IMG/VR virus record: IMGVR_UViG_3300009182_000063
Span: 1-64,000 of that record
DNA length: 64,000 bases
Source of the DNA: a virus
Strand: one strand, 5' to 3'
The notes below the pieces were generated by a model. It had not been told where the DNA came from. It made no database searches and saw only the letters and a program-made list of their open reading frames with translations. The position numbers and the translations under genes were made by a program. The stretch's first letter is position 1; each line of letters begins with the position of its first letter. This document shows, one piece after another, positions 27,610 through 55,287 of the stretch.

Positions 27610-27839
27610 TGGAAAATATATTACAGGTTGAAGGAAATCCATCTCTAGTACGAGACTTGGCATCTAACGCAATTATTAATACGAATATATCAGAGTTTGA
27701 AACCTATCTTAGAAATAGAGATATTATGTCTGCTAGAGTTAATCAATTACAGACTCAGAACGAAAAGATAAATAGACTTGAAAATGATATCAACGACATA
27801 AAAACTATGTTACAACTGTTGATCAATAAGGAAAATTAA
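27609..27839 (+). CDS. Small coiled-coil protein
   Basis: A 76-residue protein, overlapping both neighbours by one base (TAATG at each end). The C-terminal half (RVNQLQTQNEKINRLENDIN, DIKTMLQLLI) has heptad spacing of Leu/Ile/Met and should form a short coiled coil. The N-terminus (VEGNPSLVRDLASNAIINTN) is a motif I associate with small proteins of marine myophage tail operons. It is probably an adaptor or assembly factor for the flanking tail proteins. Confidence 0.7.
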   Translation: MENILQVEGNPSLVRDLASNAIINTNISEFETYLRNRDIMSARVNQLQTQNEKINRLENDINDIKTMLQLLINKEN

Positions 27840-29137
27840 TGGCATCTATCACGCTACGCACTGTTAAAGGAAGTCCTCTTACCAATCAAGAGATGGACGA
27901 CAACCTTAATAATATCAATGCTCAATTAAATCTTACTTTACCTGCAGCGTCATATACCGCAGCCGATGTGCTAACGAAACTTAAAACAGTTGACGGAGTT
28001 GGTTCTGGTTTAGATGCAGATTTGTTGGATGGTTATAATTCAGCAACAACTGCAACGGCAAACACAATTGTTCTTAGAGATGCCAATACAGATATTGCCG
28101 CAGGAGTGGTTCGTGCCACAACAGTAATTGCCAATGTAACAGGTAATGTCACAGGTAATGTAACAGGAACTCTTACTGGAAATGCAACCAATGTTTCTGG
28201 CACTGTTGCTATTAATAATGGTGGCACTGGTGGTAGTGATGCAACTTCTGCTCGCTCAAACCTTGGACTTGGATCAATGGCAACTCAGAATAATTCTGGT
28301 GTTACTATTGTCGGTGGAACTATTACTGGTTTAACAACTGCATTACCAATTGCATCTGGCGGTACAGGCGCAACATCAGCAACTGCAGTAAGAACAAACC
28401 TTGGTCTTGCCATTGGTACTGATGTTCAGCCTTTCTCAAACGAATTAACAGGTATCGCAGCAGCAACTAACACTGGTATCTATGTTCGTATTGGTGCTGC
28501 TTCAGTTACACAAAGATCAGTAGTTACTAATGGAAATGGTATAGTTGTTACAAATGGCAGCGGAGTCGGTGGTAATATTTCAGTTGACTTACCTAGTTCT
28601 GGTTCAGTAACACTTTCATCTCTACAACTTAATGCTGGTTTAACTGTTGGAACAACAGGAACTTTCTCTGGCGCTGTTACACTTCCATCTATTTCAAAAT
28701 CTGGTGGTAATGGTTCAGGTGATATTGGCCAAGACGGAAATCGTTTCGGAACAATTTTTGGAACAGCTTCTACTGCTAAGTATGCCGACTTGGCAGAAAA
28801 ATATCTTGCCGACGATACCTATGAAACAGGAACTGTTATTGTAGTTGGTGGCGAAAAAGAAGTTACTCAATCTTTCTTTGGAGACAAAGCAATCGGTGTT
28901 GTTTCTGCTGCTCCTGCTTACTGTATGAATGATGAGTTGAAAGACGGAACAAAGATAGCACTAAAAGGTCGTGTCCCAGTTAAAGTTGTTGGAGCAATTA
29001 CCAAAGGCAAAAGTATTACTGCTGGTGATAATGGAACTGCTGTTCAATGTGAACATCACTTCTATGGAGCGTTTGGCGTGGCTCTTGAATCCAGCGATAC
29101 TGAAACTGTTAAATTAATTGAATGTGTGATTTTATAA
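27839..29137 (+). CDS. Tail fibre protein with repeat shaft and conserved C-terminal head
   Basis: A 432-residue fibre. The N-terminus (ITLRTVKGSPLTNQEMDDNL followed by NNIN) is a baseplate-attachment motif found in many marine fibres. A shaft with TGNVTGNVTGTLTGNA and two NNGGTGGSDATSARSNLGLG / ASGGTGATSATAVRTNLGLA repeats follows. The C-terminal domain (AKYADLAEKYLADDTYETGT, VIVVGGEKEV, then KGRVPVKVVGAITKGKSITA) resembles the peptidase-G2-like heads seen on cyanophage fibres. It is the last ordinary structural gene before the radical SAM cassette, and its stop overlaps an ATG (TAATG at 29135-29139) that opens only a 12-codon frame. Confidence 0.8.
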   Translation: MASITLRTVKGSPLTNQEMDDNLNNINAQLNLTLPAASYTAADVLTKLKTVDGVGSGLDADLLDGYNSATTATANTIVLRDANTDIAAGVVRATTVIANVTGNVTGNVTGTLTGNATNVSGTVAINNGGTGGSDATSARSNLGLGSMATQNNSGVTIVGGTITGLTTALPIASGGTGATSATAVRTNLGLAIGTDVQPFSNELTGIAAATNTGIYVRIGAASVTQRSVVTNGNGIVVTNGSGVGGNISVDLPSSGSVTLSSLQLNAGLTVGTTGTFSGAVTLPSISKSGGNGSGDIGQDGNRFGTIFGTASTAKYADLAEKYLADDTYETGTVIVVGGEKEVTQSFFGDKAIGVVSAAPAYCMNDELKDGTKIALKGRVPVKVVGAITKGKSITAGDNGTAVQCEHHFYGAFGVALESSDTETVKLIECVIL

Positions 29138-29146
29138 TGTTTTTTG

Positions 29147-30223
29147 ATGCATGTACAGCCGATAACATTCTATAAGACAGCAGCTGTCTCTAGTATACTC
29201 AAACCAAAAGATTTAGTAGTCTATCTAAAGACAACTGAAACTTGCCAACTCAACTGCAAACACTGTTTCACTAATGGTGTCAACGGCAGAAAAGTTTACT
29301 TCAATCCCCAAGCAACAATAGACTGGTTTCACAAACTCCATGCGGAATGTGAAACATTTGGATCAGGCGCAATTATATTTCATGGTGGAGAACCTTTTCT
29401 TGCACCACTTGAAGATATGTATAAAGTTTGGGAAGAAGTATCACCCCTTTGGCCAAATCTTGGTTGGTCATGTTCAACGAATCTCTGTTTCGCACTGACA
29501 GAGGAACATTTAAAATTCTTCTCAACTGTATTAAAGAATGGTTTCTGCACCAGCTGGGACAAGAACATTCGTTTTGAAAATGATAAACAAGAAGCACTTT
29601 GGAGAAAGAACCTTAGAACTCTTGTTGATCTTGGTCACAATATAACTTTGAACATTAGTCTAAACAAAGACTTGATGAAAATGGATACTCTTGAGTTGGT
29701 TACTTGGTTAAACACTCTTGGTGTAAACTATGTTCAGTTTGAGCGACTTACCCATGATGGAAGCGCAAATATAAACACTGACATCTTTCCCGAGAATAAA
29801 GAGATAGATGATTGGTTTCTTAGAATGCATGAAACTTATCAATCAGTAAAGCCAGAGTACCATGATGTTTTGTTGGAAGGTGTATATTCCTCTGTCCTAA
29901 AAGGTGTTCATGGTGGTGTTCGTTGCAGAGACTGTGAGCAAAAGATCTTTACAATCAATGGCGATGGAACAATATCAGGTTGCCCAAATTCCGCTGTTGG
30001 TAACAGTTTTGGGGATATTGGGCAGTCTATAAATAGTTTATTAAGTGCTCCAGGAAGAATAAATAATATTACATGTGAGGTAGCTCGCGATCCTCGTTGT
30101 TACACCTGTAATGTTTTTGACATCTGTAATAGCGACTGTCACCAATTGAGTTGGCAAGGCGATGTTTGTGCAGCACCAAGAACACTAATGCAAAGGTTAA
30201 AACATGACAACAGCTGGAACTAA
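29147..30223 (+). CDS. Radical SAM/SPASM enzyme 1 (peptide-modifying type)
   Basis: A 358-residue radical SAM enzyme. Cys33, Cys37 and Cys40 (CQLNCKHC) form the CxxxCxxC motif that binds the SAM-cleaving 4Fe-4S cluster; FHGGEPFLAP is the GGE motif that contacts SAM. The C-terminal third carries many Cys in a SPASM-like arrangement (CRDCEQKIFTINGDGTISGC, later CYTCNVFDICNSDCH), which holds auxiliary clusters in RiPP- and sulfatase-maturing enzymes. I take ATG 29147; the in-frame TTG just before it is possible, and the ribosome site is weak. The 3' end overlaps the putative substrate gene by 20 bases, a strong hint of functional pairing. Confidence 0.88.
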   Translation: MHVQPITFYKTAAVSSILKPKDLVVYLKTTETCQLNCKHCFTNGVNGRKVYFNPQATIDWFHKLHAECETFGSGAIIFHGGEPFLAPLEDMYKVWEEVSPLWPNLGWSCSTNLCFALTEEHLKFFSTVLKNGFCTSWDKNIRFENDKQEALWRKNLRTLVDLGHNITLNISLNKDLMKMDTLELVTWLNTLGVNYVQFERLTHDGSANINTDIFPENKEIDDWFLRMHETYQSVKPEYHDVLLEGVYSSVLKGVHGGVRCRDCEQKIFTINGDGTISGCPNSAVGNSFGDIGQSINSLLSAPGRINNITCEVARDPRCYTCNVFDICNSDCHQLSWQGDVCAAPRTLMQRLKHDNSWN

Positions 30224-30722
30224 TATAACAAAGGCAAACATCGTTGCCTCAATGGAAGCAGTTAGAAATACCTACAACTCAGGTATTGTTTGGGGTAGCA
30301 ATGCTCAACCATTTCAATCAGATATTACTGGTGGATCCACTTCTGGATATTCTACTCAATCTTTTGCTGGTGATATTTCCGACACAAACATAACTGCATC
30401 TACAATAACAAATAACTTTAGATCCTATGCTACCCTGCTATCGAGGATTCGTAATGTTCGTTTATTGAAGTGGTATCAGATTCAAGGCGATGTAAGAAAT
30501 AGATTAGATTACGATGCCACAAATCTTACAAACTTAAATTCAAATTACCAGTGGAATGCTGATAACAGCGTTAACTCTGGAGAAACTGTTAATGCTGGAA
30601 ATCTTGATGCCTTTGTAAACTATCTGTCAGCTAACATTAGTTCATACAGACAAACAACAGTGACAGTTGAAGAATTCTACTGCCATAGTAACTGCCATAG
30701 TAACTGCCACGGAAGTATTTGA
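30204..30722 (+). CDS. Candidate modified substrate with CHSN-CHSN-CHGS C-terminus
   Basis: A 172-residue protein. Residues 1-150 look like a small alpha-helical virion protein (SRIRNVRLLKWYQIQGDVRN, a Ser/Thr/Asn-rich N-terminus). The C-terminus is YCHSNCHSNCHGSI: three CHxx units with Cys160, Cys164 and Cys168 at CX3C spacing and a His after each. The first two units are identical at DNA level (TGCCATAGTAAC twice, 30681-30704). The rest of the protein has no Cys. A long leader-like body ending in a short Cys/His repeat, overlapped on both sides by radical SAM-cassette genes, is the layout of a RiPP-type precursor. It may also be a metal-binding virion tip. Function is inferred. Confidence 0.75.
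   Translation: MTTAGTNITKANIVASMEAVRNTYNSGIVWGSNAQPFQSDITGGSTSGYSTQSFAGDISDTNITASTITNNFRSYATLLSRIRNVRLLKWYQIQGDVRNRLDYDATNLTNLNSNYQWNADNSVNSGETVNAGNLDAFVNYLSANISSYRQTTVTVEEFYCHSNCHSNCHGSI
30681..30716 (+). repeat. Three 12-base units encoding CHSN, CHSN, CHGS
   Basis: Two perfect tandem copies of TGCCATAGTAAC (30681-30692, 30693-30704) and a diverged third, TGCCACGGAAGT (30705-30716), encode the Cys/His repeat at the end of the candidate substrate. The identity of the first two copies suggests recent slippage or duplication. Confidence 0.9.
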
Positions 30723-31483
30723 TGTATACTGTACCATTTGATTCTGATACTTTGAAGAAAATTATAGTTGGAGAAATAACTTCTCCTGATATTGATTATG
30801 TTCAATCAAAGATCAAGGGTAAAAACTTCATAACATATCTCAGCAATCTCAAGTATGAGAATCTTAATATCGATTTCTCAGATGTATCGCTTGATGAAAG
30901 AATAGAATTAGTTTCTGAGTATATTAGACACAATTCAACTTGTCACATTGAGCAGTTGGAAGCAACAGTTATTAAAGCACTGTTTCACTACAGAGGATAT
31001 GAGTTATCTCTGGTTGACCAATCAGAAGATGACAAACCATTTTTACACAAGTCTATATTATCGAATGATGAAATACAAGAGTTCGTTAAGATTGATATCA
31101 AATTAATTAAACAACTTGCAGATTTACTTGATGGTGTTCTTTTGTATGCAATTAAAAATCTAAACGATTACAAAGAAGAACTTGGCGATTTTGTAACGAC
31201 CAATGTTATTGTAGAGAAACAAGAAGTTGGAAAAACTTTTGTAAACTTCTTTGATAATCCAACATTTAATTGTCACTACTATGGAGCGATCCCTAAATTT
31301 GATGACATCAAGTATTTTGACCATTACTTTGACAGACCAATTTACTCTGGTAGAACATTGATTAGTTACATAACAGTACCACAGTGTGTTATATTTCCAC
31401 TATTGAAAATGATTATAGATGTAAAATTTACACCTGAACAATTAAACTCAATATTCAAAGAAGCCGATGCTACACTTATTTAA
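30722..31483 (+). CDS. Unknown protein of the radical SAM cassette (253 aa)
   Basis: A 253-residue acidic protein with no motif I recognise. The start at ATG 30722 overlaps the substrate stop (TGATG). It is mostly helical (LDERIELVSEYIRHNSTCHI, EQLEATVIKALFHYRGYELS), has a mid-protein segment rich in Lys/Ile and a C-terminal part with NFFDNPTFNCHYYG. There is no obvious membrane segment or RiPP recognition element, although such small domains are hard to see by eye. Being immediately downstream of the putative precursor, it may be an escort, recognition or assembly factor. Confidence 0.7.
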   Translation: MYTVPFDSDTLKKIIVGEITSPDIDYVQSKIKGKNFITYLSNLKYENLNIDFSDVSLDERIELVSEYIRHNSTCHIEQLEATVIKALFHYRGYELSLVDQSEDDKPFLHKSILSNDEIQEFVKIDIKLIKQLADLLDGVLLYAIKNLNDYKEELGDFVTTNVIVEKQEVGKTFVNFFDNPTFNCHYYGAIPKFDDIKYFDHYFDRPIYSGRTLISYITVPQCVIFPLLKMIIDVKFTPEQLNSIFKEADATLI

Positions 31484-32333
31484 TTCTTGCTATGTATATC
31501 CGTACATATTGTTTGATCCAACAAATAATTATTTGGTGGTAGGTGAAGACCATCTGAATCATCAGATAATTTCAAATAGTTTTTTCTACAATAATTCTAC
31601 ACCAAGAGAACCTTTTGCCAGATTAGATTCTTTTGAAACCTTTGCTGGATGTAACTTGCTAGATGCAACTGTCAACAACAAAGATAGATTTTTGATTTAT
31701 ACCGATGATGATAATTTCATTAAATTCTTCACGGCAAAAATGAAAACTCAAGTGGCAAACTTGAGCGAAGACTTCTTTCTTACAACGGCAAAGTTGTTTG
31801 CAGTTAAATTAAAAACAAGGGCAAAGTTACTTGCAACTGATGACGCAAAACTAGAATTAAATAATCTTGCCGATAAATTCTTGGCACTAACTTCAATACC
31901 AGAAGTTGATGCTTTCTCACTCACACGTGCATGGGTCACTGCCAATGCTGGTATTGAGTGGAAATTTGCCAATGGTATTCTTGATAATATTCATGACATT
32001 GTTAATCGTAATGTGTACTCGTACTTTGATGAAGCAAAGGCACTTTATCTTTCCAGAAAACAAGGTGGCTGGGCTCTTGAAGAAACCAATCAGAAATATA
32101 AAACTTGTGCATCTATTGAAGATCTTTATTCGCAGATGCGTAAAGAGATTATGATATTCACGGATTCTCTAATTTTACAGTACTACTACGATAGAGAAAT
32201 GTTTAAGGATCCAAAGTTCTTACTACTACTTGCATCCAATAAAGACATGGGTGATAAGATTGACCTTTGGTTGATTAGATGGTTTATGAAAATGTCTCAA
32301 GAACAAATTAAAGAATTGGACATAGTAGCATGA
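31467..32333 (+). CDS. Unknown cassette protein A, paralogue of the next gene
   Basis: A 288-residue protein whose start lies 17 bases inside the preceding gene. Its N-terminus, MLHLFNSCYVYPYILFDP, parallels MIYLFDNCYLSTKNIIVE of the next gene, and both have a later strand-plus-acidic motif (FLIYTDDDNFIKFF versus TIIYCDVDYFQYVY). Both therefore look like one alpha/beta family, duplicated. It also has a helical Lys/Leu-rich middle and ends with a charged helix (KMSQEQIKELDIVA). The conserved early Cys and Asp cluster might be catalytic. I cannot name the family. Confidence 0.7.
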   Translation: MLHLFNSCYVYPYILFDPTNNYLVVGEDHLNHQIISNSFFYNNSTPREPFARLDSFETFAGCNLLDATVNNKDRFLIYTDDDNFIKFFTAKMKTQVANLSEDFFLTTAKLFAVKLKTRAKLLATDDAKLELNNLADKFLALTSIPEVDAFSLTRAWVTANAGIEWKFANGILDNIHDIVNRNVYSYFDEAKALYLSRKQGGWALEETNQKYKTCASIEDLYSQMRKEIMIFTDSLILQYYYDREMFKDPKFLLLLASNKDMGDKIDLWLIRWFMKMSQEQIKELDIVA

Positions 32334-33283
32334 TATATCTTTTCGATAACTGTTATCTGTCAACAAAAAACATAATAGTTGAAACTGCCAAGCAAGTATG
32401 GATCGGTTCTTTTGAGAATTTTGATGAGAAGTCTCTTGACATTTACAAAACATATACCGATATTACTCCAAAGAAATTAGACGACTTGTTTGCAGATATT
32501 CATAAGAATTTCTCAGATAAGAAAACTATTATATACTGTGATGTTGATTATTTCCAGTATGTATATTCTATTTTCTTCAATGGTATTTTCAGTAAGGCAA
32601 CTGTTCTTGAGTTGTATCAATACGATGCTCTCAAGGAAAACTATGGTCTTGCCGATACATATGGTCTGGTTGTAACTGGGCTCAGAGATATTAATCGTGT
32701 TACTTTGCCAGAAGAATTAAATTGGACCAGTGGTTCTTCAAAGTTCTCTGCTGATCTTGATACTCAAAGAGTTGAGATAGCATTTGCCAATGCGATTCAA
32801 GGTAACAAAAAGTCTTTGGCATTTTGTGTTGACAGAATTGATCAAATGTATGATGGCACTCCAGGATTCTGGTCTAAGTTTGCAGAGCAAACTCTCCCTG
32901 GAATTATGTCCGATGAAGAATATACTATCGAGCATTTATTGGACACCGAGTATATGGAAACATACCTTGATCAATTTAAGGTAAACGAGTTCCTTCCAAA
33001 CAAGATTGTTCCAATCATCAATGATAAGTTTGGATATGATTATCATAAGCATTTCTTCACTGTTTTAAATAATGATGAAAACTATGAGGAATTCTTAAAA
33101 CCTATACTAAAGATGAGCAAGAAACAGTTTATCGAGAAACGAATCCTAGATCCAAAGATTGCGGTAAATTACAACTTCATCTTTCCAAACATTTCCAACT
33201 TTGATTCTGTGAATCCAATTTTCTGGAATGCGATATTAAAGAACCAAGACAATATAGAATGGCTCAAAAAGTATAAAGTGTAA
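32330..33283 (+). CDS. Unknown cassette protein B, paralogue of the previous gene
   Basis: A 317-residue protein joined to its paralogue by an ATGA overlap and to the next gene by TAATG. It shares the LF.xCY start and IIYCDVDYF motif with protein A but diverges after that. The C-terminal part (LKMSKKQFIEKRILDPKIAV followed by NYNFIFPNISNFDSVN) is charged and aromatic. No signal peptide or membrane segment is visible. The tight coupling to a radical SAM gene suggests it acts with it, for example as a substrate carrier or a partner enzyme; this is inference from context only. Confidence 0.7.
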   Translation: MIYLFDNCYLSTKNIIVETAKQVWIGSFENFDEKSLDIYKTYTDITPKKLDDLFADIHKNFSDKKTIIYCDVDYFQYVYSIFFNGIFSKATVLELYQYDALKENYGLADTYGLVVTGLRDINRVTLPEELNWTSGSSKFSADLDTQRVEIAFANAIQGNKKSLAFCVDRIDQMYDGTPGFWSKFAEQTLPGIMSDEEYTIEHLLDTEYMETYLDQFKVNEFLPNKIVPIINDKFGYDYHKHFFTVLNNDENYEEFLKPILKMSKKQFIEKRILDPKIAVNYNFIFPNISNFDSVNPIFWNAILKNQDNIEWLKKYKV

Positions 33284-34335
33284 TGGAATTAATAATTAAA
33301 CCAACTGAACTTTGTAATTTTAAATGTACCTTTTGCTCATCAACTAAACTTGTAGAAGATAGTGCCAGCACTCTTGACTTACAGCATGTTTTTGATTTTC
33401 TAAAGAGATTTCCAAATACAAATACAATAATTGTCAATGGTGGAGATCCACTAATGATGAAACCAGAGTATTACTTTAATATTCTTGCGTACATTGAAGA
33501 ACACAAACTCCCAACAACTCTTGGATTCACAACTAACCTTTGGGCATTCTACAAGAAACCAGAGATGTGGACTCCGCTGTTTAGACACCCAAGAGTTGGT
33601 GTTACTACAAGTTTTCAGTATGGGTTCGGTCGCAAGATTAATGAAAACAGAGTTTATACTGAAGCCGACTTTTGGAAAGTCAGTGATTTGTTTCTCAAAG
33701 AAGTTGGTTATCGTCCAGGGTTTATTGCTGTTATCTCTGAAGAGAATGAACATCATGCAATTAAACATGTTGAACTTGCCAAGAAAATGGATGTTCAGTG
33801 TAAGTTAAACTATGCCATGGCTTCTGGCGAACAGGATAAACCATATCGCCTAAGTAAGATATATGAAGCATACCTAGAAGTGTATGAGAGAGACCTTTGG
33901 CACTGGGAATTTAACACAAAGCAGATGATGAGTCGTTTGAATAACATTGCCAATGTTTGTCCTCAAGCAAGAAACTGCGATGATCATATAAGAGCATTGA
34001 ACCCAGAGGGAGATTACTACTCCTGTGGTTCTATGGGTGATGACAGAGAATATCCAATTAACTTTGTAAAGGAAGTTAAAGAAGGTGGTTTCTCTACTCC
34101 ACTTCAAGATGCTCCAGAATTATATTCGCTGAAAGATGAGTGTATTGGTTGCCCAATGTTTGCGATTTGTAATGGGTGTAAGAAAACAATTAAAGATTTA
34201 AAGAAACATGATATGGTTGAAGAGCACTGCTCACATATGAAGCAGTTGGCTCCAAGAATTATTAAGATAAACAGTGAAATAGATTATGTCGAAGCAACTC
34301 AAAGAATCCATCAAATTCTCGTTCCTGAATATTGA
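33283..34335 (+). CDS. Radical SAM/SPASM enzyme 2
   Basis: A 350-residue radical SAM enzyme. Cys11, Cys15 and Cys18 (CNFKCTFC) form the cluster motif very near the N-terminus, and IIVNGGDPLMM is the SAM-contact GGD/GGE equivalent. The C-terminus has SPASM-like cysteines: CPQARNCDDHIRALNPEGDY, YSCGSMGDD, CIGCPMFAICNGC and a last HC. The layout resembles anaerobic sulfatase-maturing and RiPP-maturing enzymes. It is only weakly similar to enzyme 1 outside the motifs, so the two probably catalyse different steps or act on different residues. It overlaps the following B12-type enzyme by 50 bases. Confidence 0.87.
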   Translation: MELIIKPTELCNFKCTFCSSTKLVEDSASTLDLQHVFDFLKRFPNTNTIIVNGGDPLMMKPEYYFNILAYIEEHKLPTTLGFTTNLWAFYKKPEMWTPLFRHPRVGVTTSFQYGFGRKINENRVYTEADFWKVSDLFLKEVGYRPGFIAVISEENEHHAIKHVELAKKMDVQCKLNYAMASGEQDKPYRLSKIYEAYLEVYERDLWHWEFNTKQMMSRLNNIANVCPQARNCDDHIRALNPEGDYYSCGSMGDDREYPINFVKEVKEGGFSTPLQDAPELYSLKDECIGCPMFAICNGCKKTIKDLKKHDMVEEHCSHMKQLAPRIIKINSEIDYVEATQRIHQILVPEY

Positions 34336-36178
34336 TCTTCGTGTACCGATTCAAAGGTTACCAATTAATTGGTTGAACTTTAAGAATTACTACACGAAAC
34401 ATGGTAAATATTCAGACCGAGTAGTTTGGCAGAAACCAATTCTCAATCTAGAAGGTTGGACATTTGAACAGATTGTGACTTACTATGACGAGCAGGATTC
34501 TGACATCTATGCTTTCTCTAGTTATCTCTGGAGTCACATGGCTATTATGGCAGTTGCTCAAGAATTAAAAAAGCGTAATCCAAACAGAATTATTTTACTT
34601 GGTGGTCCACATCTTAATATTACTCATAATAATCTAGGATGGTTCATTAAGAATAAGTTTATCGATGCGATTTGCGAACCTACAAGTTATGGTGAGTGGT
34701 TCATTACTGATATTTTGAATCAGTTTGTAGAGGGTGATATAAACTACAAAGAAGTTTCCTTTGCGATCTATAAAAGTGGACGTGGCACAAGTCCTAATAA
34801 GATTGGGTTTGACTTTCCTGCAAGTTTAATTGCTGGCAATGAAGATATACTGTTTGAGTGCAAGAACATAGCACTTGACAGAAATGTACCTTTGGTTTTA
34901 CCAATTGAGTTAACTCGTGGTTGTCCCTATGAGTGTGTCTTTTGCGAGTGGGGTGGTGGTATTGGTGGTAAGGTTATTCGTAAACCACTAGATATGATCA
35001 AGGAAGATCTAGACTGGATACCGCAGATCGGTATTGAGCAAGTTCAAATTCTTGATGCAAATTACGGAATATATCTGGAAGATGAGGATGTTTCCAAATA
35101 TATAGAAACGATCAAAGATTATTCAGGTTTACCAAACCATGTAGAGATATATGGAATGACAAAGTCCAAGCAAGAAAGACGCTGGGCAACCATTGAACCA
35201 CTGGCACGAGCAAAGGTAGTTGAGCGATACAAGTTAAGTTTACAAACACTGAACAATGAAGTGTTAAAGAATATTAAACGAACAGATATTCCTCGCGAAA
35301 AAGACTTTGAGTTTGCTCAGTATCTGTTTGATACCTATGGTATTCGTTCTGACTTTGAATTTATGATGGGACTGCCTGGATATACCAGACAAGACTTCTA
35401 TGATGAAGTAGATATACAGTACGAGTATGGTTATAACCTTGAGAGATATCTTTGGTTATTCCTACCAGACTCACCTGCCTACTCACCTGACTATATCAAA
35501 GAACATAATATTAAAACTGAAAAGATATGTATCGGTAAGTCAAGAATGAATAGTTATGCTTTTGATGACGTAAATCTTTTCGGTGATTATCATATTTCCT
35601 CTGATCCAGCTTTTACCTCAGATGTTGAGTTTGTTGTTGAAGCCAATGGGTTTACAAGAAAAGACTTTACTGAGTTCTTTTTTATGAATTACTGGATCGT
35701 GAACAATATTGTTGAAGTTACCTTTACCGATGATATTATAAAGCATAATGTAAATACTGGTAAACTTAAAACTCCATCTTTGGTGTTTAAGAAAATCTAC
35801 GAAAAGATAAGTGAGCCAACAGAAAATAAATATGTGTTGGCAATGCAAGACTTAAATGCTCAGATGTATGATTTAATTGCTGGAAACAGAAAAGAAGTTG
35901 CAGACTACAAAGAATTTAATCTACCTAATACAACAGTATCAGTGGATTTTAAATATATTTACAAGTCTTGTATATATGTTTTTGAACAGGAATATATTGA
36001 TTTTCTTTGTTCAGTCGGTGAGGAGTTGGGACTTGAGATTCCAAACGATATCGTTGAACAATTTACAACTGTTCTAAATAAGTACAGAGAATCTATTTCT
36101 CCAAAGTATGATAAGACCTATCAGATAAGAACCTACTACGAAAATTTTATTAATGAGAAATATACAACAGTTACTTGA
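34286..36178 (+). CDS. B12-binding-type radical SAM enzyme
   Basis: A 630-residue enzyme with an N-terminal Rossmann-like domain (residues about 60-150: FSSYLWSHMAIMAVAQELKK, then RIILLGGPHLN) like the cobalamin-binding part of class B radical SAM enzymes, but without the DxHxxG histidine motif. The radical SAM core follows, with Cys213, Cys217 and Cys220 in ELTRGCPYECVFCEWGGG, then IEQVQILDANYGIY and a typical YKLSLQTLNNEVLKNIKRTD strand. The C-terminal 200 residues are helical and unassigned. Such enzymes often methylate unactivated carbons in peptides or lipids. It starts 50 bases inside enzyme 2; a later start is possible but would trim the fold. Confidence 0.83.
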   Translation: MSKQLKESIKFSFLNIDLRVPIQRLPINWLNFKNYYTKHGKYSDRVVWQKPILNLEGWTFEQIVTYYDEQDSDIYAFSSYLWSHMAIMAVAQELKKRNPNRIILLGGPHLNITHNNLGWFIKNKFIDAICEPTSYGEWFITDILNQFVEGDINYKEVSFAIYKSGRGTSPNKIGFDFPASLIAGNEDILFECKNIALDRNVPLVLPIELTRGCPYECVFCEWGGGIGGKVIRKPLDMIKEDLDWIPQIGIEQVQILDANYGIYLEDEDVSKYIETIKDYSGLPNHVEIYGMTKSKQERRWATIEPLARAKVVERYKLSLQTLNNEVLKNIKRTDIPREKDFEFAQYLFDTYGIRSDFEFMMGLPGYTRQDFYDEVDIQYEYGYNLERYLWLFLPDSPAYSPDYIKEHNIKTEKICIGKSRMNSYAFDDVNLFGDYHISSDPAFTSDVEFVVEANGFTRKDFTEFFFMNYWIVNNIVEVTFTDDIIKHNVNTGKLKTPSLVFKKIYEKISEPTENKYVLAMQDLNAQMYDLIAGNRKEVADYKEFNLPNTTVSVDFKYIYKSCIYVFEQEYIDFLCSVGEELGLEIPNDIVEQFTTVLNKYRESISPKYDKTYQIRTYYENFINEKYTTVT

Positions 36179-36866
36179 ACACGTAAATAGAATTCCCCAT
36201 CTGCCATTAAATTTTAACTATGACGCAGAAAGAATTGAACGTGAAGTTCGTGAGTGTCCCTTTCCGCTTATGCCCTATGAAGCAACCATGCAAGAAAATC
36301 ATGGACATGAAAAGAGTAAGTGGAACAACTTGTCACTGTTCAGCTACAATGGTGAAATCTTTTGCGATCGTTTAGAAGGTGCTGGTCCAGGAGAACTAGA
36401 AAGAATTTGGGGCAAAGTTCAACAGACTGGATTGTCTGAGTATATGCCCTATACCTATGAGGTTCTTGAACACCTTGGTGGTGGTAAAGCACTGGCAAGG
36501 ATTGAAGAAATACTTCCTGGAACTGTGATGGGTTGGCATAATCATGTGTTTGAATTGTTTCATCCAGAAACAATGATGATTGTTCAGTTGCCCATAACTA
36601 TACCTCAAAAATTTAAATACTCTGTGATGGCAAACAAAGATTACAGAGGAATGGACTTTGGACTTTATACACCAAAGGTATATGAGTCTACTTACAATCC
36701 AGGAACACCAGTTATTTTTAATGCGTATCACTATCATAATGTGTTTAACTTTGACAAAACAGGTGTTCGTTTAACGATTCGTTTCTTTGCTGATTTAAGA
36801 GATGATAGAGTATATGATTTAGTACAGGATGCAGTGAATAATTATAAGGGAGATTACATTGAATAA
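36153..36866 (+). CDS. Asp/Asn-hydroxylase-like oxygenase 1
   Basis: A 237-residue protein resembling the aspartyl/asparaginyl beta-hydroxylase branch of Fe(II)/2-oxoglutarate oxygenases. Sequence supports this: WNNLSLFSY near the start, LARIEEILPGTVMGWHNHV with His129 and His131, IVQLPITIPQKF, then NPGTPVIFNAYHYHNVFN with His193 and His195, and RLTIRFFADLRDD, whose Arg could bind 2-oxoglutarate. Family members hold iron with two histidines. It overlaps the B12-type enzyme by 26 bases and its paralogue by 8. It probably hydroxylates a peptide or amino acid; the substrate is unknown. Confidence 0.72.
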   Translation: MRNIQQLLEHVNRIPHLPLNFNYDAERIEREVRECPFPLMPYEATMQENHGHEKSKWNNLSLFSYNGEIFCDRLEGAGPGELERIWGKVQQTGLSEYMPYTYEVLEHLGGGKALARIEEILPGTVMGWHNHVFELFHPETMMIVQLPITIPQKFKYSVMANKDYRGMDFGLYTPKVYESTYNPGTPVIFNAYHYHNVFNFDKTGVRLTIRFFADLRDDRVYDLVQDAVNNYKGDYIE

Positions 36867-37557
36867 TATTGCACATCTTCCTCTTGGTATAGATTTTGAT
36901 CATAAAAAAATTCTAACAGAGATAGAGAATTTACCTCATTCGCTACGCAAATATCGTAGTGCACTATCAAATGGTAAAACCATGGAAATTCATGATGAGG
37001 AAAGATGGGATTCGTTGGCACTTTATAGCATTGACGGAAAATCTGAATCTAATCCTGCAGAACCATGGACAGGGGACTTTATTAAAACTGAAGCACTTTA
37101 TATGTGTCCTTACTTGGACAGTGTTTTACACTCTGTCGGTGGTGGTAAATTACTTGGAAGAATTGAGATATTTAACAAGAATGGATCTGCTGGCTGGCAC
37201 AGTCATGTTATGGAAGCGGGACAACCAGAGTGGATCTCTGTTTGGAATCTTCCACTTATTATGCCCAAGGAATCTAAGTTTAGTGTGCTTTCCTACATGG
37301 ATTACAGAGGTTCAGATTACAACAAACCGATTAAAATATATGAGCAGTGGTATGAACCTGGAAAGATGTACTGTTTAAACAGTTATCACTATCATAATGC
37401 CTTTAATTATGGTGATATGTCAATGATTATGATTCGATTCTATGTTGATACAAGAGACGAAAAAGTTAAAGAAATATTACAAAAAGCCATGGATAACTAC
37501 ACTGGAGAGTACATTCAGTCTTATGAAGAGTATATAATCTCCACTGCAGTTACCTAA
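36859..37557 (+). CDS. Asp/Asn-hydroxylase-like oxygenase 2, TTG start
   Basis: A 232-residue paralogue of the preceding oxygenase. Matching elements are RWDSLALYSIDG, LGRIEIFNKNGSAGWHSHVM with His114 and His116, VWNLPLIMPKESKFSVLSYM, then EPGKMYCLNSYHYHNAFN with His177 and His179, and MIMIRFYVDTRDEK. Identity is moderate, so the duplication is not recent. I keep the TTG at 36859 as start because a strong AAGGGAG site lies six bases upstream and no nearby ATG exists. It is the last gene of the cassette; a late promoter variant follows before the next fibre. Confidence 0.72.
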   Translation: MNNIAHLPLGIDFDHKKILTEIENLPHSLRKYRSALSNGKTMEIHDEERWDSLALYSIDGKSESNPAEPWTGDFIKTEALYMCPYLDSVLHSVGGGKLLGRIEIFNKNGSAGWHSHVMEAGQPEWISVWNLPLIMPKESKFSVLSYMDYRGSDYNKPIKIYEQWYEPGKMYCLNSYHYHNAFNYGDMSMIMIRFYVDTRDEKVKEILQKAMDNYTGEYIQSYEEYIISTAVT

Positions 37558-37588: not shown

Positions 37589-38215
37589 ATGACCACAGCA
37601 CTCACTACCAGAGTTTCCACCAACGCAACATTTGCTCCCACAGTAAAGGGATCGCCGATTTCAAGCGCAGAAATTGATAACAACTTTATCAGTTTGGCCA
37701 CAAACAAACTAGAAATTGCCAATAACCTTGCTGATTTACAGGATCCACCAACAGCAGCTACTAACCTTAGTGTTGGAACTTCTTCTCAGGCGCAGTTTGG
37801 ATCGCTTGGTGTTGGTACTACAGGTTCTGCAACAACTGGTGAGATTAGAGCAACCAATCAAATTACTTCTTACTACTCTGATGCTCGTTTAAAAACAAAC
37901 ATCAAAACAATCCCCAATGCTTTAGAAAAAGTAATGCAAATTACAGGTGTTACCTACACAGGTAACAAACTGGCAGAATCTTTTGGGTTTGATCCAAACC
38001 AAAAACAAGTCGGTGTTCTTTCTCACGAAATTGAGGCAGTACTGCCTGAAGCAGTGAAGTCGGCACCCTTTGATATTATGCTTTTTGAACACACTGAGAT
38101 GTCAAAATCTGGTCAAAATTTTAAAACTGTTCAATACGAGAAGCTGGTTCCTCTTCTTATAGAGGCAATAAAAGAACTAAATATAGAAGTAAAGAAATTA
38201 AAGGAGATTAAATAA
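37589..38215 (+). CDS. Short tail fibre with S74 self-cleaving chaperone domain
   Basis: A 208-residue fibre. The N-terminus (FAPTVKGSPISSAEIDNNFI) is a variant of the attachment motif also seen in the fibre at 27839. The C-terminal 110 residues are an intramolecular chaperone of the peptidase S74 type: YYSDARLKTNIKTIPNALEK, a GVLSHEIEAVLPEAVKS block, VQYEKLVPLLIEAIKELN and a Lys-rich coiled coil. Ser-Asp in SDARLK marks the usual self-cleavage site. The domain folds the trimer and is then released. It opens the adhesin array and overlaps the next gene by one base. Confidence 0.85.
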   Translation: MTTALTTRVSTNATFAPTVKGSPISSAEIDNNFISLATNKLEIANNLADLQDPPTAATNLSVGTSSQAQFGSLGVGTTGSATTGEIRATNQITSYYSDARLKTNIKTIPNALEKVMQITGVTYTGNKLAESFGFDPNQKQVGVLSHEIEAVLPEAVKSAPFDIMLFEHTEMSKSGQNFKTVQYEKLVPLLIEAIKELNIEVKKLKEIK

Positions 38216-38760: not shown

Positions 38761-40050
38761 ATGGCTTACCTTGGTAATACACCAACTTCGCAAAGTTTTA
38801 CTTCCAATATAGATTACTACAGTGGAACAGGTTCAGCTACAGCGTTTACACTGTCACGTTCAGTGGCCACGATCAATGATATTTTGGTTGTTGTTGATAA
38901 CGTGGTTCAACGACCAACTGATGCTTATACACTGAGCGGAAGTGTTATCACCTTTACTTCTGCTCCACTGAGCGGAACTAACAATATCTATGTTCGTTAT
39001 ATGGCAACAACTACTCAGGTTGTTGCTCCTGCCGCAAACAGCGTTTCCTATTCTTCTTTGACCTCAGATATGCAAAGTAATATCTATGGGTTCAAGAATC
39101 GTATTATGAATGGTGGTATGGGTATTTGGCAAAGAGGTACTAGTTTTACTGTCGCTGGTTCTACTTTTGCATATACTGCAGATCGCTGGGTTGTATATTC
39201 TGCAAATAGTTCAACTACGGTATCAAGAAATTCAAGCATTCCAACTGGTACTGGATTTCCATATAGCGCACAAGTACAGCGCACTGCTTCAAACACAGGA
39301 ACAAGTGCTGTATTTTTCCAACAAATAATTGAATCAAATAATATGCTTGATCTAGCAGGTCAAACAATAACATTAACATTCTGGGCAAAAGCAGGTGCCA
39401 ATTTTTCATCAGGAAGCACTGGTGTATACATTAATACAGGAACTGTTGCTGATCAAGGAACCGCAGCTTCTCTTGGTAGTTGGACTGGATACACTTCTGC
39501 TGCTACATATACTTTTACGCCAACAACAACTTGGACAAAATATACTGTAACTGCTAATTTAAGTTCAATTGCTTTAGAATTATCAACATTATTTTTCTAT
39601 AACCCAACAGGTACTGCTGGAGCAGATGATTCTCTTTATATCACTGGTCTTCAGTTAGAAAAAGGCGCAACAGCAACTAACTTTGATTACAGACCTTATG
39701 GTGCTGAAAAACTTTTGTGTATGAGATATTATGAAAAAACATATCAAGATGATGAAGCACCTAATAGAGTTAATCCAAATACAGCTAATGCATTAACTGG
39801 TGTTGCAACAAGTACTACTAACATTGCTTGTCATTGGAAATTTTCAGTACCTAAGAGAACATCAGCAACAGTACAATATTATTCTTGGAATGGAACTGGT
39901 GCTGGTAAGTGGGCAAATTTAAGTAATACTGATGTTACAGTTTCAACACCGTGGGGTGCTGGTTATACTGGATTTGCTAGACTCGATAGTACGGGTCTTA
40001 CTGCTGGTGCTTTTTATTGGGGCTTTGCGGCTGCAGATGCGGAGTTATAA
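38761..40050 (+). CDS. Adhesin/fibre 1 of the -AEL class
   Basis: A 429-residue fibre with a strong AAGGAG site. The N-terminus (TPTSQSFTSNIDYYSGTGSA, then SRSVATINDILVVVDNVVQR and YTLSGSVITFTSAP) is a phage attachment domain. Next comes the adhesin core FKNRIMNGGMGIWQRGTSFT, common to seven fibres here. A carbohydrate-binding-like beta-sandwich (TITLTFWAKAG, then FLYITGLQLEKGATATNFDY-like) and a variable tip follow. It ends ADAEL, where the GCGGAGTTATAA coding the end also serves as ribosome site for the next small gene. Confidence 0.85.
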   Translation: MAYLGNTPTSQSFTSNIDYYSGTGSATAFTLSRSVATINDILVVVDNVVQRPTDAYTLSGSVITFTSAPLSGTNNIYVRYMATTTQVVAPAANSVSYSSLTSDMQSNIYGFKNRIMNGGMGIWQRGTSFTVAGSTFAYTADRWVVYSANSSTTVSRNSSIPTGTGFPYSAQVQRTASNTGTSAVFFQQIIESNNMLDLAGQTITLTFWAKAGANFSSGSTGVYINTGTVADQGTAASLGSWTGYTSAATYTFTPTTTWTKYTVTANLSSIALELSTLFFYNPTGTAGADDSLYITGLQLEKGATATNFDYRPYGAEKLLCMRYYEKTYQDDEAPNRVNPNTANALTGVATSTTNIACHWKFSVPKRTSATVQYYSWNGTGAGKWANLSNTDVTVSTPWGAGYTGFARLDSTGLTAGAFYWGFAAADAEL

Positions 40051-40052
40051 AA

Positions 40053-40214
40053 ATGTATAAATTATCAACACCTTGGAATGGTAAGTCTCTAGTTATTATT
40101 AGACTTAGTGACAATGCTTGTATTCCTATTGACAATAATAACAGAGATTATAGGGAATACCTTAAATGGCTTGCTGAAGGTAATACACCACTCCCAGCAG
40201 ATACGGAGAAATAA
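40053..40214 (+). CDS. MYKL-type fibre partner ORF 1 (53 aa)
   Basis: MYKLSTPWNGKSLVIIRLSD, then NACIPIDNNNRDYREYLKWL and AEGNTPLPADTEK. It is the first of seven small genes with the core (A/C)xIP.D..N.DY..YL.W...GN.P.PAD, a peptide that follows fibre genes in many phages. It begins three bases after the fibre stop and overlaps the next fibre by one base. It probably helps to fold or assemble its fibre. Confidence 0.82.
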   Translation: MYKLSTPWNGKSLVIIRLSDNACIPIDNNNRDYREYLKWLAEGNTPLPADTEK

Positions 40215-41386: not shown

Positions 41387-41581
41387 ATGTATAAATTAAT
41401 AGGATATTATGATTACGATAACCACTTAAATAAAGTTGGTGAACTTAAAGTGGAAAAAAATGCTGTTCTCAGATTAAGAGACACCGCATATGTGTACTTC
41501 AATGAAGATAGTAAAGATTATCAAGCATACCTAACATGGGTCGAAGCAGGCAACGATCCTGAACCAGCGGACGAGGAATAA
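41387..41581 (+). CDS. MYKL-type fibre partner ORF 2 (64 aa)
   Basis: MYKLIGYYDYDNHLNKVGEL, then RLRDTAYVYFNEDSKDYQAY and LTWVEAGNDPEPADEE. It belongs to the same family as the 53-residue gene before it but has a longer N-terminal part. It starts immediately after the fibre stop, driven by the GGAG inside the fibre's last codons, and is followed by fibre 3 after one base. Confidence 0.82.
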   Translation: MYKLIGYYDYDNHLNKVGELKVEKNAVLRLRDTAYVYFNEDSKDYQAYLTWVEAGNDPEPADEE

Positions 41582-46165: not shown

Positions 46166-47286
46166 TGACACAAGCAGTTGTTACAGCGCAAAATGGTGGA
46201 GCAGATTACTCTGGCACCTTTCGTAACAAAATAATCAATGGTGACATGCGTATTGATCAGCGCAATGCTGGTGCAAGTATTTCAGCTGGTTTAAGCACTT
46301 TCACTGTTGATAGATGGCCAGTGTATGCTTCGGTAGCAAGCAAAGGAACAGCAGGTCAAAACCTCAACGCAGTTACACCACCAACTGGTTTTTCAAATTA
46401 TCTTGGATTTCAAACTGGTGGCAGTGCATATAGTGTAACAAGTAGCGACCTGTTCTTTTTCTATCAAAACATTGAAGGATATAACACTTCTGAATTAAAT
46501 TATGGAACTGCAAATGCTAAAACAGTTACAGTATCCTTTTGGGTAAATAGTTCATTAACTGGAACATTTGGTGCGCTATTAACAAACAGTGCATACAATA
46601 GAGCATATGGATTTACTTATACTATTTCTGCTGCCAATACTTGGACATATATTTCTGTTCCAGTTCCTGGAGATACAAGCGGAACATGGGTCGGTGGTAC
46701 CAATGGTATAGGAATGACATTAAGAATTAATCTTGGTTGTGGTTCTAGTTCTAATGTGACAGCTGGTTCTTGGCAATCTGCTTCTGCTTCTGGTGTAACA
46801 GGAACAGTTAGCGTTTTAGGAACAGCCAATGCTACTTTCTACTTTACTGGTGTTCAGTTAGAAGTCGGAACTCAAGCAACACCCTTTGAGCGTCGTCCTT
46901 ACGGTATGGAGTTGGCACAGTGCCAAAGATATTACTATAGAACACCAGCGCAAGGAGATGGTGCTCAACACTACAACATAATGGGTCGTATAACAGGATT
47001 AAATCAAAGTGTTTTCACTTCAAATTTACCTGTTAGTATGAGGACATATCCTGCAATATCATTAACTCCAGCATATAATACTGGATCGGGGTGGCAAACT
47101 AATTTAGCAGGAGTCTCCAATGCAGCTTGGACAAGTGCTCCTACTCAGTTGTCTCCAGAGTTAAATAAGTTTTGTTTTTATGTTGGTACAGCAACATGGT
47201 CTGGTACATATGTAGGTACATCTGTTCAACCATATACACCTACTGGTGTCGCTGCCAACTACATAGAATTAAATGCGGAGTTATAA
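46165..47286 (+). CDS. Adhesin/fibre 4 of the -AEL class
   Basis: A 373-residue fibre. It begins TQAVVTAQNGGADYSGTFRN and KIINGDMRIDQRNAGASISA, nearly the same as fibre 5 at 47518, also at DNA level. The sandwich part has KTVTVSFWVNSSLTGTFGAL, SAANTWTYISVPVPGDTSGT and FTGVQLEVGTQATPFERRPY. The variable tip ends IELNAEL with GCGGAGTTATAA. It is the first of a tandem pair (fibres 4 and 5) with common bases. Confidence 0.85.
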   Translation: MTQAVVTAQNGGADYSGTFRNKIINGDMRIDQRNAGASISAGLSTFTVDRWPVYASVASKGTAGQNLNAVTPPTGFSNYLGFQTGGSAYSVTSSDLFFFYQNIEGYNTSELNYGTANAKTVTVSFWVNSSLTGTFGALLTNSAYNRAYGFTYTISAANTWTYISVPVPGDTSGTWVGGTNGIGMTLRINLGCGSSSNVTAGSWQSASASGVTGTVSVLGTANATFYFTGVQLEVGTQATPFERRPYGMELAQCQRYYYRTPAQGDGAQHYNIMGRITGLNQSVFTSNLPVSMRTYPAISLTPAYNTGSGWQTNLAGVSNAAWTSAPTQLSPELNKFCFYVGTATWSGTYVGTSVQPYTPTGVAANYIELNAEL

Positions 47287-47287
47287 A

Positions 47288-47521
47288 GTGAATACATATA
47301 AAATTCAATTAGAACCAGATAGAGCTGATGGTGGTGTTAGACAACCATGTGCTGTTTTGCGTTCCGATGGTTGGAGTATTCCACTACATCCAGACAATAC
47401 TGACTTTCAAACTTTTGTAAAAGAATTAACAGTTGACTTTACAATACTTCAGGATGCTGATGGTAAGCAAGCTGATCAAGGAACTATCAAAGCAATATTA
47501 AAGATTAGGAATAATCAATGA
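47288..47521 (+). CDS. MYKL-type fibre partner ORF 4, GTG start (77 aa)
   Basis: A diverged family member: (GTG)NTYKIQLEPDRADGGVRQP, then CAVLRSDGWSIPLHPDNTDF and QTFVKELTVDFTILQDADGK. I choose GTG 47288, because it is the standard seven bases after the fibre-encoded GGAG; the frame upstream belongs to the fibre. The C-terminal half (about 30 residues) is an extension absent from partners 1-3. It overlaps fibre 5 by four bases (ATGA). Confidence 0.78.
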   Translation: MNTYKIQLEPDRADGGVRQPCAVLRSDGWSIPLHPDNTDFQTFVKELTVDFTILQDADGKQADQGTIKAILKIRNNQ

Positions 47522-50414: not shown

Positions 50415-50597
50415 ATGACATTGCCAGAAAAAATTAAAGCACTTTATCCAGAATTAGTAGATGCTGATTTTATGGGACGAAACGCAACCATACATCTTCA
50501 AAACGATTCAGACGGAAAAGGCGACTACATCGCTGAGTGGAAACACCCTACCTTGGCCAAGCCAACACAAGAACAATTAGATGCAGTTAAGGAATAA
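50415..50597 (+). CDS. Small partner of C1q-like adhesin 2 (60 aa)
   Basis: MTLPEKIKALYPELVDADFM, then GRNATIHLQNDSDGKGDYIA and EWKHPTLAKPTQEQLDAVKE. It is the paralogue of the gene at 49683. The order adhesin-partner-adhesin-partner shows the pair was duplicated as one unit. It begins two bases after the adhesin stop, with AAGGAG inside the adhesin's last codons. Confidence 0.82.
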   Translation: MTLPEKIKALYPELVDADFMGRNATIHLQNDSDGKGDYIAEWKHPTLAKPTQEQLDAVKE

Positions 50598-54121: not shown

Positions 54122-55102
54122 ATGGCATACGGTAATTTAGCAGTTGATACGATAACAACCAGCACTGGTCAAGTGGTCGGTGCATCTTCTGCTTCTAGCA
54201 TGAAGAATCGTCTTATCAATGGCGCCATGACATTTTGGCAGCGTGGTACAAGTTCATCTTCGACAGGTTATCTTGCTGATCGTTGGAATTTCTATGCTGA
54301 CTCATCAAGAACTTTTGCTCGTTCAACTGATGTACCATCTGGATTTCAATATTCTTCTTCCTTGACTGGAACAGGTAGCACTGGACTTACACAATACATT
54401 GAGTCTGTTAACTGTGCCGATCTTGGTGCGCAAACAATCACTGTTTCTTTTTGGTTGAAACAAACTTCAGGCGCAGGTACTAACGCAATCGCACTAAACC
54501 TTTACTACGCAAGCACTACAGATGCTACCTATTCAACTAGAATCGGCACTCAGCAACAATTCAATACAACTTCTTCATGGCAACAATATAGTGCTACTTT
54601 CACAGCACTTCCATCTTCTGTTGCCAATGGTATTCAGGTAACAATAGTAACAACAAGTGGATCGGCAGTGACTTTCCTTGTTACTGGTGTTCAGGTAGAA
54701 CTCGGTGCTTCGCCAACTTCCTATGAGTACAGACACTATGGACAAGAGTTGAGATTATGTCTAAGATACTATGAGATTATGAATGATCAATATTATCCAC
54801 TACATATTCCTTATGGATATTCACTATATGCTGCTGGATATTGGAGATTTTTAGAACCAAAAAGAGCAACACCAACAGTATCAGATGCAAGAAGTGTAAC
54901 TGGTACAACATTTGCTAGTGCTGTTGATCAATTTGGTCAAGGATCTTTTACACCGACCAGCATGCAAATTGATAGTCCTACACAATATGGTTGTCGCATT
55001 GCTTTAATTTTTACTGGTTCTCTTGGAACAGCAGGAACTACCCATGGTGATATGATTAATATACAAAAATCTGGTTTCTTCCAAGCAAGTGCGGAGTTAT
55101 AA
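54122..55102 (+). CDS. Adhesin/fibre 7 of the -AEL class
   Basis: A 326-residue fibre with the base AYGNLAVDTITTSTGQVVGA and the core MKNRLINGAMTFWQRGTSSS. Its sandwich (AQTITVSFWLKQTSGAGTNA, FLVTGVQVELGASPTSYEYR) is closer to fibre 3 than to fibre 6, although the base is that of fibre 6, again a mosaic. The tip ends FFQASAEL with GCGGAGTTATAA, and the next ATG overlaps the stop by one base. Confidence 0.85.
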   Translation: MAYGNLAVDTITTSTGQVVGASSASSMKNRLINGAMTFWQRGTSSSSTGYLADRWNFYADSSRTFARSTDVPSGFQYSSSLTGTGSTGLTQYIESVNCADLGAQTITVSFWLKQTSGAGTNAIALNLYYASTTDATYSTRIGTQQQFNTTSSWQQYSATFTALPSSVANGIQVTIVTTSGSAVTFLVTGVQVELGASPTSYEYRHYGQELRLCLRYYEIMNDQYYPLHIPYGYSLYAAGYWRFLEPKRATPTVSDARSVTGTTFASAVDQFGQGSFTPTSMQIDSPTQYGCRIALIFTGSLGTAGTTHGDMINIQKSGFFQASAEL

Positions 55103-55287
55103 TGTACAAATTTTACAAAAAGATGGATAGTACAATTGATGATACTGGTATCATTCGTATGTTCAATTCGTGGAATGAACCAACACCGAACCCTGCTTAT
55201 GTTCCCTTTGATCCAAAGAACAGAGACTATCAAGAGTATCTTAAGTGGCTTGCCATTGGAAATACACCACTTCCTGCTGATGATTAA
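55102..55287 (+). CDS. MYKL-type fibre partner ORF 7 (61 aa)
   Basis: MYKFYKKMDSTIDDTGIIRM, then FNSWNEPTPNPAYVPFDPKN and RDYQEYLKWLAIGNTPLPAD. It is the last member of the array, with the canonical YVPFDPKNRDYQEYLKWLA.GNTPLPAD core. It is followed by a strong terminator, so this gene closes the transcription unit of the fibre array. Confidence 0.84.
   Translation: MYKFYKKMDSTIDDTGIIRMFNSWNEPTPNPAYVPFDPKNRDYQEYLKWLAIGNTPLPADD

Follow-up and report, generated by a model that had tools for sequence, protein, structure and literature searches.

A radical SAM gene cassette among phage tail fiber genes, linked to a protein with a C-terminal Cys-His tag

What would a tailed phage do with three radical SAM (rSAM) enzymes encoded among its tail fiber genes? 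The question is raised by a locus in the window, by which we mean the whole stretch of DNA analyzed (64,000 nucleotides, positions 1 to 64,000 of IMG/VR record IMGVR_UViG_3300009182_000063, a viral contig of 64,570 bases from a T4-like phage). We found the same enzyme block always beside one small protein whose terminal Cys-His tag hardly varies, and this suggests a tail protein tip that is built chemically for host contact.

The cassette consists of nine overlapping open reading frames (ORFs), all on the plus strand at positions 29147 to 37557 (Table 1). Three encode rSAM enzymes (two SPASM type, one B12 type), two encode Asp/Asn-hydroxylase-like proteins, one encodes the tagged protein, and three encode proteins without known function; families were assigned from Pfam, NCBIfam, and PHROG searches. 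Successive overlaps calculated from the ORF ends were 20, 4, 17, 4, 1, 50, 26, and 8 bases. T4-like baseplate wedge and hub genes lie upstream, and tail fiber genes flank the cassette on both sides (Pfam, PHROG); relatives in the position of the upstream fiber end in Peptidase_G2 or S74 chaperone domains. This gene set and its tail context are shown directly. Farther 3′ of the cassette, small proteins of 60 to 82 amino acids (aa) with similar ends (DYxxYLxWxxxGNxPxPAD) alternate with repeated tail fiber genes.

An earlier sequence-only reading had described nine genes on one strand, nearly all overlapping, between two tail fibers; order and coordinates were confirmed, as were the position between fibers (tail fiber PHROGs, Peptidase_S74), the two SPASM-type rSAMs and one B12-type rSAM, and the single protein with a terminal Cys/His repeat. 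Its second overlap of 1 base holds only if the third gene starts at ATG 30722; with TTG 30719, the overlap is 4 bases. The claim of two tandem hydroxylase-like oxygenases rests on a weak Pfam match for the 36153 product and, for the 36859 product, only on its clustering with 36153. Among the three proteins called unknown, the 30719 product belongs to phrog_20767, and those of 31467 and 32330 fall into no database family.

Table 1. Features of the cassette, its surroundings, and related loci
Feature	Location	Strand	Evidence
Upstream tail fiber	27839..29137	+	tail fiber PHROGs
R2, rSAM/SPASM enzyme	29147..30223	+	phrog_1802, 2e-55; CxxxCxxC motif
Tagged protein (CH protein), substrate candidate	30204..30722	+	phrog_35144 family; ends YCHSNCHSNCHGSI
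Tag of the 30204 product	residues 160-172 = bases 30681-30719	+	C-terminal CH repeat
P254, conserved, directly downstream of tagged gene	30719..31483	+	phrog_20767, 1.9e-29
LFNY-type protein	31467..32333	+	family recurs in cassettes
Second LFNY-type protein	32330..33283	+	N-terminal pattern as in 31467
R1, rSAM/SPASM enzyme, cassette core	33283..34335	+	Radical_SAM, 8.7e-9; phrog_1802, E about 1e-55
B12-dependent rSAM, predicted C-methyltransferase	34286..36178	+	B12-binding and rSAM domains; KedN5 family, 5.6e-35
Asp/Asn-hydroxylase-like oxygenase	36153..36866	+	PF05118, 4.3e-4, just under curated cutoff
Second hydroxylase-like protein	36859..37557	+	sequence clustering with 36153
Downstream tail fiber end, endosialidase chaperone domain	37589..38215	+	Peptidase_S74, 1.6e-14
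Small proteins between fiber genes	40017-40214, 41387-41581, 55102-55287; also 47273-47521, 50415-50597		
Second-class tagged proteins	L058, L086, L110, L118, L160, L164, and others		
S74-ending neighbors (Bdellovibrionota)	L294 5654-6691; L295 17955-19142; L297 9628-10920		

The enzymes themselves resemble tailoring enzymes to different degrees. R1 and R2 both combine an rSAM domain with a SPASM-like C terminus, and the best curated rSAM match of each is the dynobactin maturase DynA (R1, 1.3e-14, 53.9 bits; R2, 3.4e-8, 32.9 bits; cutoff, 450). The 34286 product has PDB relatives in TokK (2.8e-27) and CysS (1.2e-23) and, with both domains and methyltransferase relatives, meets the criteria for a methylcobalamin-dependent rSAM methyltransferase, an activity that remains a prediction. 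No meaningful match to the 36859 product was found in Pfam, NCBIfam, or PHROG. The AlphaFold model of P254 is confident (pLDDT, 86.5), and its fold has no relative in PDB. The two LFNY-type proteins align with each other at low identity; the first has no relative in Pfam, PHROG, or PDB, and the second belongs to no Pfam, NCBIfam, or PHROG family. Pfam showed no RRE domain in the window proteins, with no sensitive RRE profile search made for P254 or the LFNY-type proteins. In the cassette of Burkholderia phage SURPRISE13 (L001, 6855-8032), two adjoining genes are annotated as dihydrofolate reductase, the first of which is a clear DHFR (Pfam, 1.3e-46).

The triple CH repeat that ends the tagged protein is present a single time in the window and in none of 100 window shuffles, and this absence led us to reject a chance origin. 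In relatives, the consensus is a C-terminal CHxSCHxSCHxS, usually followed by RGRR, with variants CHSSCHSSHSSRNRR and CHYSCFTSSCHFSRGRR; R[GSNA]RR follows the third CHxS in 154 of 162 distinct tagged proteins. It should be kept in mind that the Cys and His positions of this 162-protein set are partly fixed by the search pattern. In an alignment of 76 proteins, tag columns were 79% identical, compared with 30% for the body. AlphaFold predicted a confident domain (mean pLDDT, 83.8) with a loose tag; the fold has no PDB relative, and in BFVD its clear matches are limited to other phage members and three larger proteins of Myoviridae sp. ctijX18. The latter (A0A8S5USV2, A0A8S5USJ7, and A0A8S5USJ8; 504 to 660 aa) have predicted folds resembling the tagged domain. 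None of 77 tagged proteins contained a Pfam family or a known leader-type domain. A second class of tagged proteins, of about 127 to 140 aa and often in tandem pairs, has only the C-terminal 56 columns in common with the main class. With a conserved core at its C terminus and modifying enzymes encoded next to it, the tagged protein meets that criterion for a RiPP cluster.

The link between tag and enzymes runs in both directions. Relatives of R1 were found in 323 IMG/VR stretches, the best 80 of which were fetched for study, and at 50 to 61% identity in jumbo phages of Burkholderia glumae, Pseudomonas aeruginosa, Agrobacterium, and Sinorhizobium. Each of these jumbo phage relatives sits in a multi-rSAM cassette, where a small protein adjoining an R2-type rSAM ends in CHSSCHTSCHGSRGRR, CHTSCHASCHSSRSRR, CHSSCHASCHNSRSRR, or CHTSCHTSCHSARGRR. 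R2 was present in 75 of 85 R1-anchored loci, and its gene usually comes immediately before that of the tagged protein. Among the 68 R1-anchored loci holding a P254 gene, 66 encode the tagged protein, and in the remaining two (L010 and L043) the contig ends there; two isolate phages (L001 and L002) have no recognizable P254 yet encode the tagged protein, so that it was found in every judgeable locus (68/68). Conversely, when IMG/VR was scanned with the exact tag pattern alone, 110 of the 120 stretches to which the scan was limited contained the rSAM family of the cassette. In four of the ten others no tagged protein is seen, and the rest are mostly short or cut. Gene order was nearly invariant: tail fiber, JmjC-type cupin, R2, tagged protein, P254, and LFNY, then R4, B12-rSAM, 2-oxoglutarate (2OG) enzymes, and R1, followed by R3, cl5, and tail genes.

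These data show that the cassette extends well beyond this one locus: the same block is present in numerous large tailed phages and in a small number of predatory bacteria. The conserved order, the invariant tag, and the two-way linkage are observed directly, and they make a strong case for the tagged protein as the substrate, with action of the enzymes on the tag inferred. The sequence-only reading had proposed the Cys/His tail of the 30204 product as the target of the enzymes, and had named regular occurrence of the rSAM genes without the CHxx protein as its refutation; the 68 tagged loci did not refute it, and the linkage supports it, with the modification itself still an inference.

If the enzymes act directly on the tag, enzyme content and tag letters would be predicted to vary together. 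A Trp-halogenase family gene (E, 5e-76) was found in all seven complete main-class loci with Tyr in the tag and in 3 of 52 loci without it (3 loci from 2 phages; Fisher P = 9e-6, uncorrected for relatedness); it was absent from both Tyr-bearing tandem-class loci. A Trp-halogenase gene lies within the cassette, mostly beside CHYS tags, in L037, L042, L046, L047, L071, L076, and L077. In the window's clade, whose tags end in CHGSI or CHGSL, R3, R4, cl5, cl6, and the cupin are absent near the cassette, and R3 and cl5 are absent throughout the full contigs tested. Because this is one clade, the pattern counts as a single contrast. The Arg tail is matched more closely by R3, R4, and cl5 than by the JmjC cupin, but only through that one-clade contrast. 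A role of the cupin as an Arg-specific enzyme was weakened by two RNRR-tagged contigs without a detectable cupin. The co-variation may thus reflect direct action on the tag, but it rests on few independent lineages and is no proof.

Is the tagged protein part of the virion? Its gene lies within the tail fiber region and so meets that criterion for a structural protein. In phage Atu_ph07, virion proteins identified by proteomics are grouped in CDS 31-76, 170-215, and 284-329 (PMC6102473), and CDS 170, the first gene of the second cluster, encodes the tagged protein; gp198 (portal) and gp204 (prohead core) fit the same CDS numbering. However, the three clusters comprise exactly 46 genes each, and the CDS 170 boundary may therefore not mark a detected protein. 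We consider virion location likely, inferred from the tail context and this cluster start rather than from peptide data for the protein itself; for the window's own phage, it is likewise an inference.

When 84,980 species genomes were scanned for the exact tag, 88 matches were obtained, mostly attributable to chance; the tagged protein together with the rSAM family was found only in phage-like contigs and nine Bdellovibrionota-type genomes, and the tag was present in 8 of 291 sampled Bdellovibrionota genomes. On long contigs, the genes flanking these cassettes include rpsT, pyruvate kinase, and oxidase-like genes (assigned by visual inspection), and such flanks make the copies look chromosomal rather than prophage. 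The homology of these cassettes is shown: tagged proteins of phages and Bdellovibrionota align over 186 columns (hhalign, 99.9%). Several of the bacterial cassettes adjoin a protein with a terminal Peptidase_S74 domain, with a pilin N-methylation motif as well in 2 of 3 tested. Beside these neighbors is a protein of roughly 200 aa ending in ..VNGRHWVKVK or similar. Bdellovibrio bacteriovorus contacts its prey with S74 fibers (PMC10769870). In a midpoint-rooted R1 tree, the window's clade joins Bdellovibrionota and two other phages, apart from most phages; from this tree, a single origin of the Bdellovibrionota copies is possible but not demonstrated.

The data support well a dedicated RiPP-like cassette for which a substrate candidate has been identified; its chemistry and role are inferred. 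On balance we favor, with less assurance, a RiPP-like system whose target is the tag on a virion protein used for host contact; modification, chemistry, and host contact are all inferred, and no modified peptide has been seen. In this model, R2 and R1, helped by P254 and the LFNY-type proteins, would act on the C-terminal CHxSCHxSCHxS tag, and accessory enzymes that differ among phages (B12-rSAM, 2OG and JmjC hydroxylases, extra rSAMs, sometimes a flavin halogenase) would decorate it further. The folded domain would stay attached as anchor and enzyme recognition part, and the modified tag would be presented for host contact by a tail-associated virion component or, in Bdellovibrionota, by a surface fiber. 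RiPP-like modification at the tail, as proposed earlier, is thus supported as a reading, with the modification and the virion location of the 30204 product inferred; whether thioether cross-links, methyl or hydroxyl groups, or a metal site are added remains inference. A bolder reading, on which we would not commit either way, is that unrelated phages and some Bdellovibrionota share a mobile multi-rSAM cassette, a novel viral posttranslational chemistry in which a modified Cys-His tip attacks the envelope of another bacterium.

Three other explanations were considered. The first is a released RiPP product, in which the domain is a large leader and the tag a core cleaved off as a toxin, signal, or metal chelator. 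In its favor are the large N-terminal part with a short invariant C-terminal core, the resemblance of the rSAM, B12-rSAM, and oxygenase set to RiPP pathways, and the chromosomal Bdellovibrionota copies. However, no protease or transporter is among the recurrent cassette families, the tagged proteins lack a known leader-type domain, and both the placement between fibers and the Atu_ph07 cluster start favor a virion part. Genes for leader removal and export are not encoded in every RiPP pathway. We regard this explanation as unlikely. Also unlikely is an unmodified tag that serves for metal binding or sorting, with the enzymes modifying another tail part, such as the neighboring fibers, or the host surface. 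CH repeats could bind metal unmodified (an inference without binding data), and fibers are constant neighbors, but the enzymes follow the tagged protein rather than any one fiber, and tag letters co-vary with enzyme content. Least tenable is that the rSAMs serve as auxiliary metabolic genes, in Fe-S or cofactor metabolism, and lie near a tail protein by accident, as multiple rSAM genes in other phages have been treated (PMC2853527, PMC5332604, PMC7150976), because their two-way linkage to one invariant tag spans unrelated phages and Bdellovibrionota, and the closest curated rSAM families are peptide maturases.

The preferred reading, modification of the tag, would mean that RiPP-type chemistry is present on virions, something new to phage biology, that a phylum of predatory bacteria relies on the same set of genes, and that there is a natural tag whose residues seem to co-vary with the enzymes present. 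Since the cassette rSAMs have one plausible substrate, the question is directly testable in cultured phages, and the family occurs in Atu_ph07, the Burkholderia jumbo phages, and pPa_SNUABM_DT01. The sequence-only reading knew of no description of such a phage system, and neither the tag nor the system was found described in the open PMC literature searched; novelty is provisional, as bioRxiv and subscription papers were outside this scope. A literature text query with the tag letters returned only noise.

Among known systems, the cassette phages have multiple rSAM genes in common with CP220/CPt10, 332-Vera, and T4-like marine genomes, and many-rSAM phages are mentioned in several papers (PMC2853527, PMC5332604, PMC7029224, PMC12390700, PMC8066314, PMC5468394). 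In those phages, the genes were called unusual or treated as metabolic (PMC2853527, PMC12390700, PMC5332604), without a named tag or substrate. The rSAM genes of 332-Vera lie inside a structural cluster (PMC12390700), and Ralstonia phage phiRP31 has both virion mass spectrometry and rSAM genes (PMC5468394). No link to the cassette was established for Campylobacter phage CP220 (11 rSAMs) from the annotation of its first 50 kb. The mosaic adhesive trimer (MAT) fibers of Bdellovibrio are S74-chaperoned prey-contact fibers, and the likeness lies in cassettes beside pilin-S74 chimeras; MATs, however, have signal peptides, the tagged protein is no fiber by sequence, and the MAT paper does not mention rSAM genes (PMC10769870).

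Closer likenesses are found among peptide maturation systems. The polytheonamide pathway applies rSAM, a B12-rSAM C-methyltransferase, and a 2OG-type hydroxylase to the C-terminal region of a precursor whose N-terminal part is large. The enzyme set and C-terminal target of such proteusins are similar to ours, but the tagged protein has no known leader-type domain (the Nitrile-hydratase-like/Nif11-like criterion is not met), its tag has only 12 to 16 residues, and the cassette lies in a phage tail setting without a recurrent protease or exporter. Dynobactin and darobactin maturation (DynA, DarE) supplies the best curated match of R1 and R2, but at scores far under the cutoff and with a different precursor and gene set. 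The His-Xaa-Ser (Hxs) system, like the cassette, places H-x-S-containing C-terminal repeats beside paired rSAMs. R1 matches HxsC only weakly (1.4e-7, 30.7 bits; cutoff, 267.9), so that the HxsB/HxsC criterion is not met, and in contrast to Hxs, the cassette tag is a period-four CHxS repeat with Cys.
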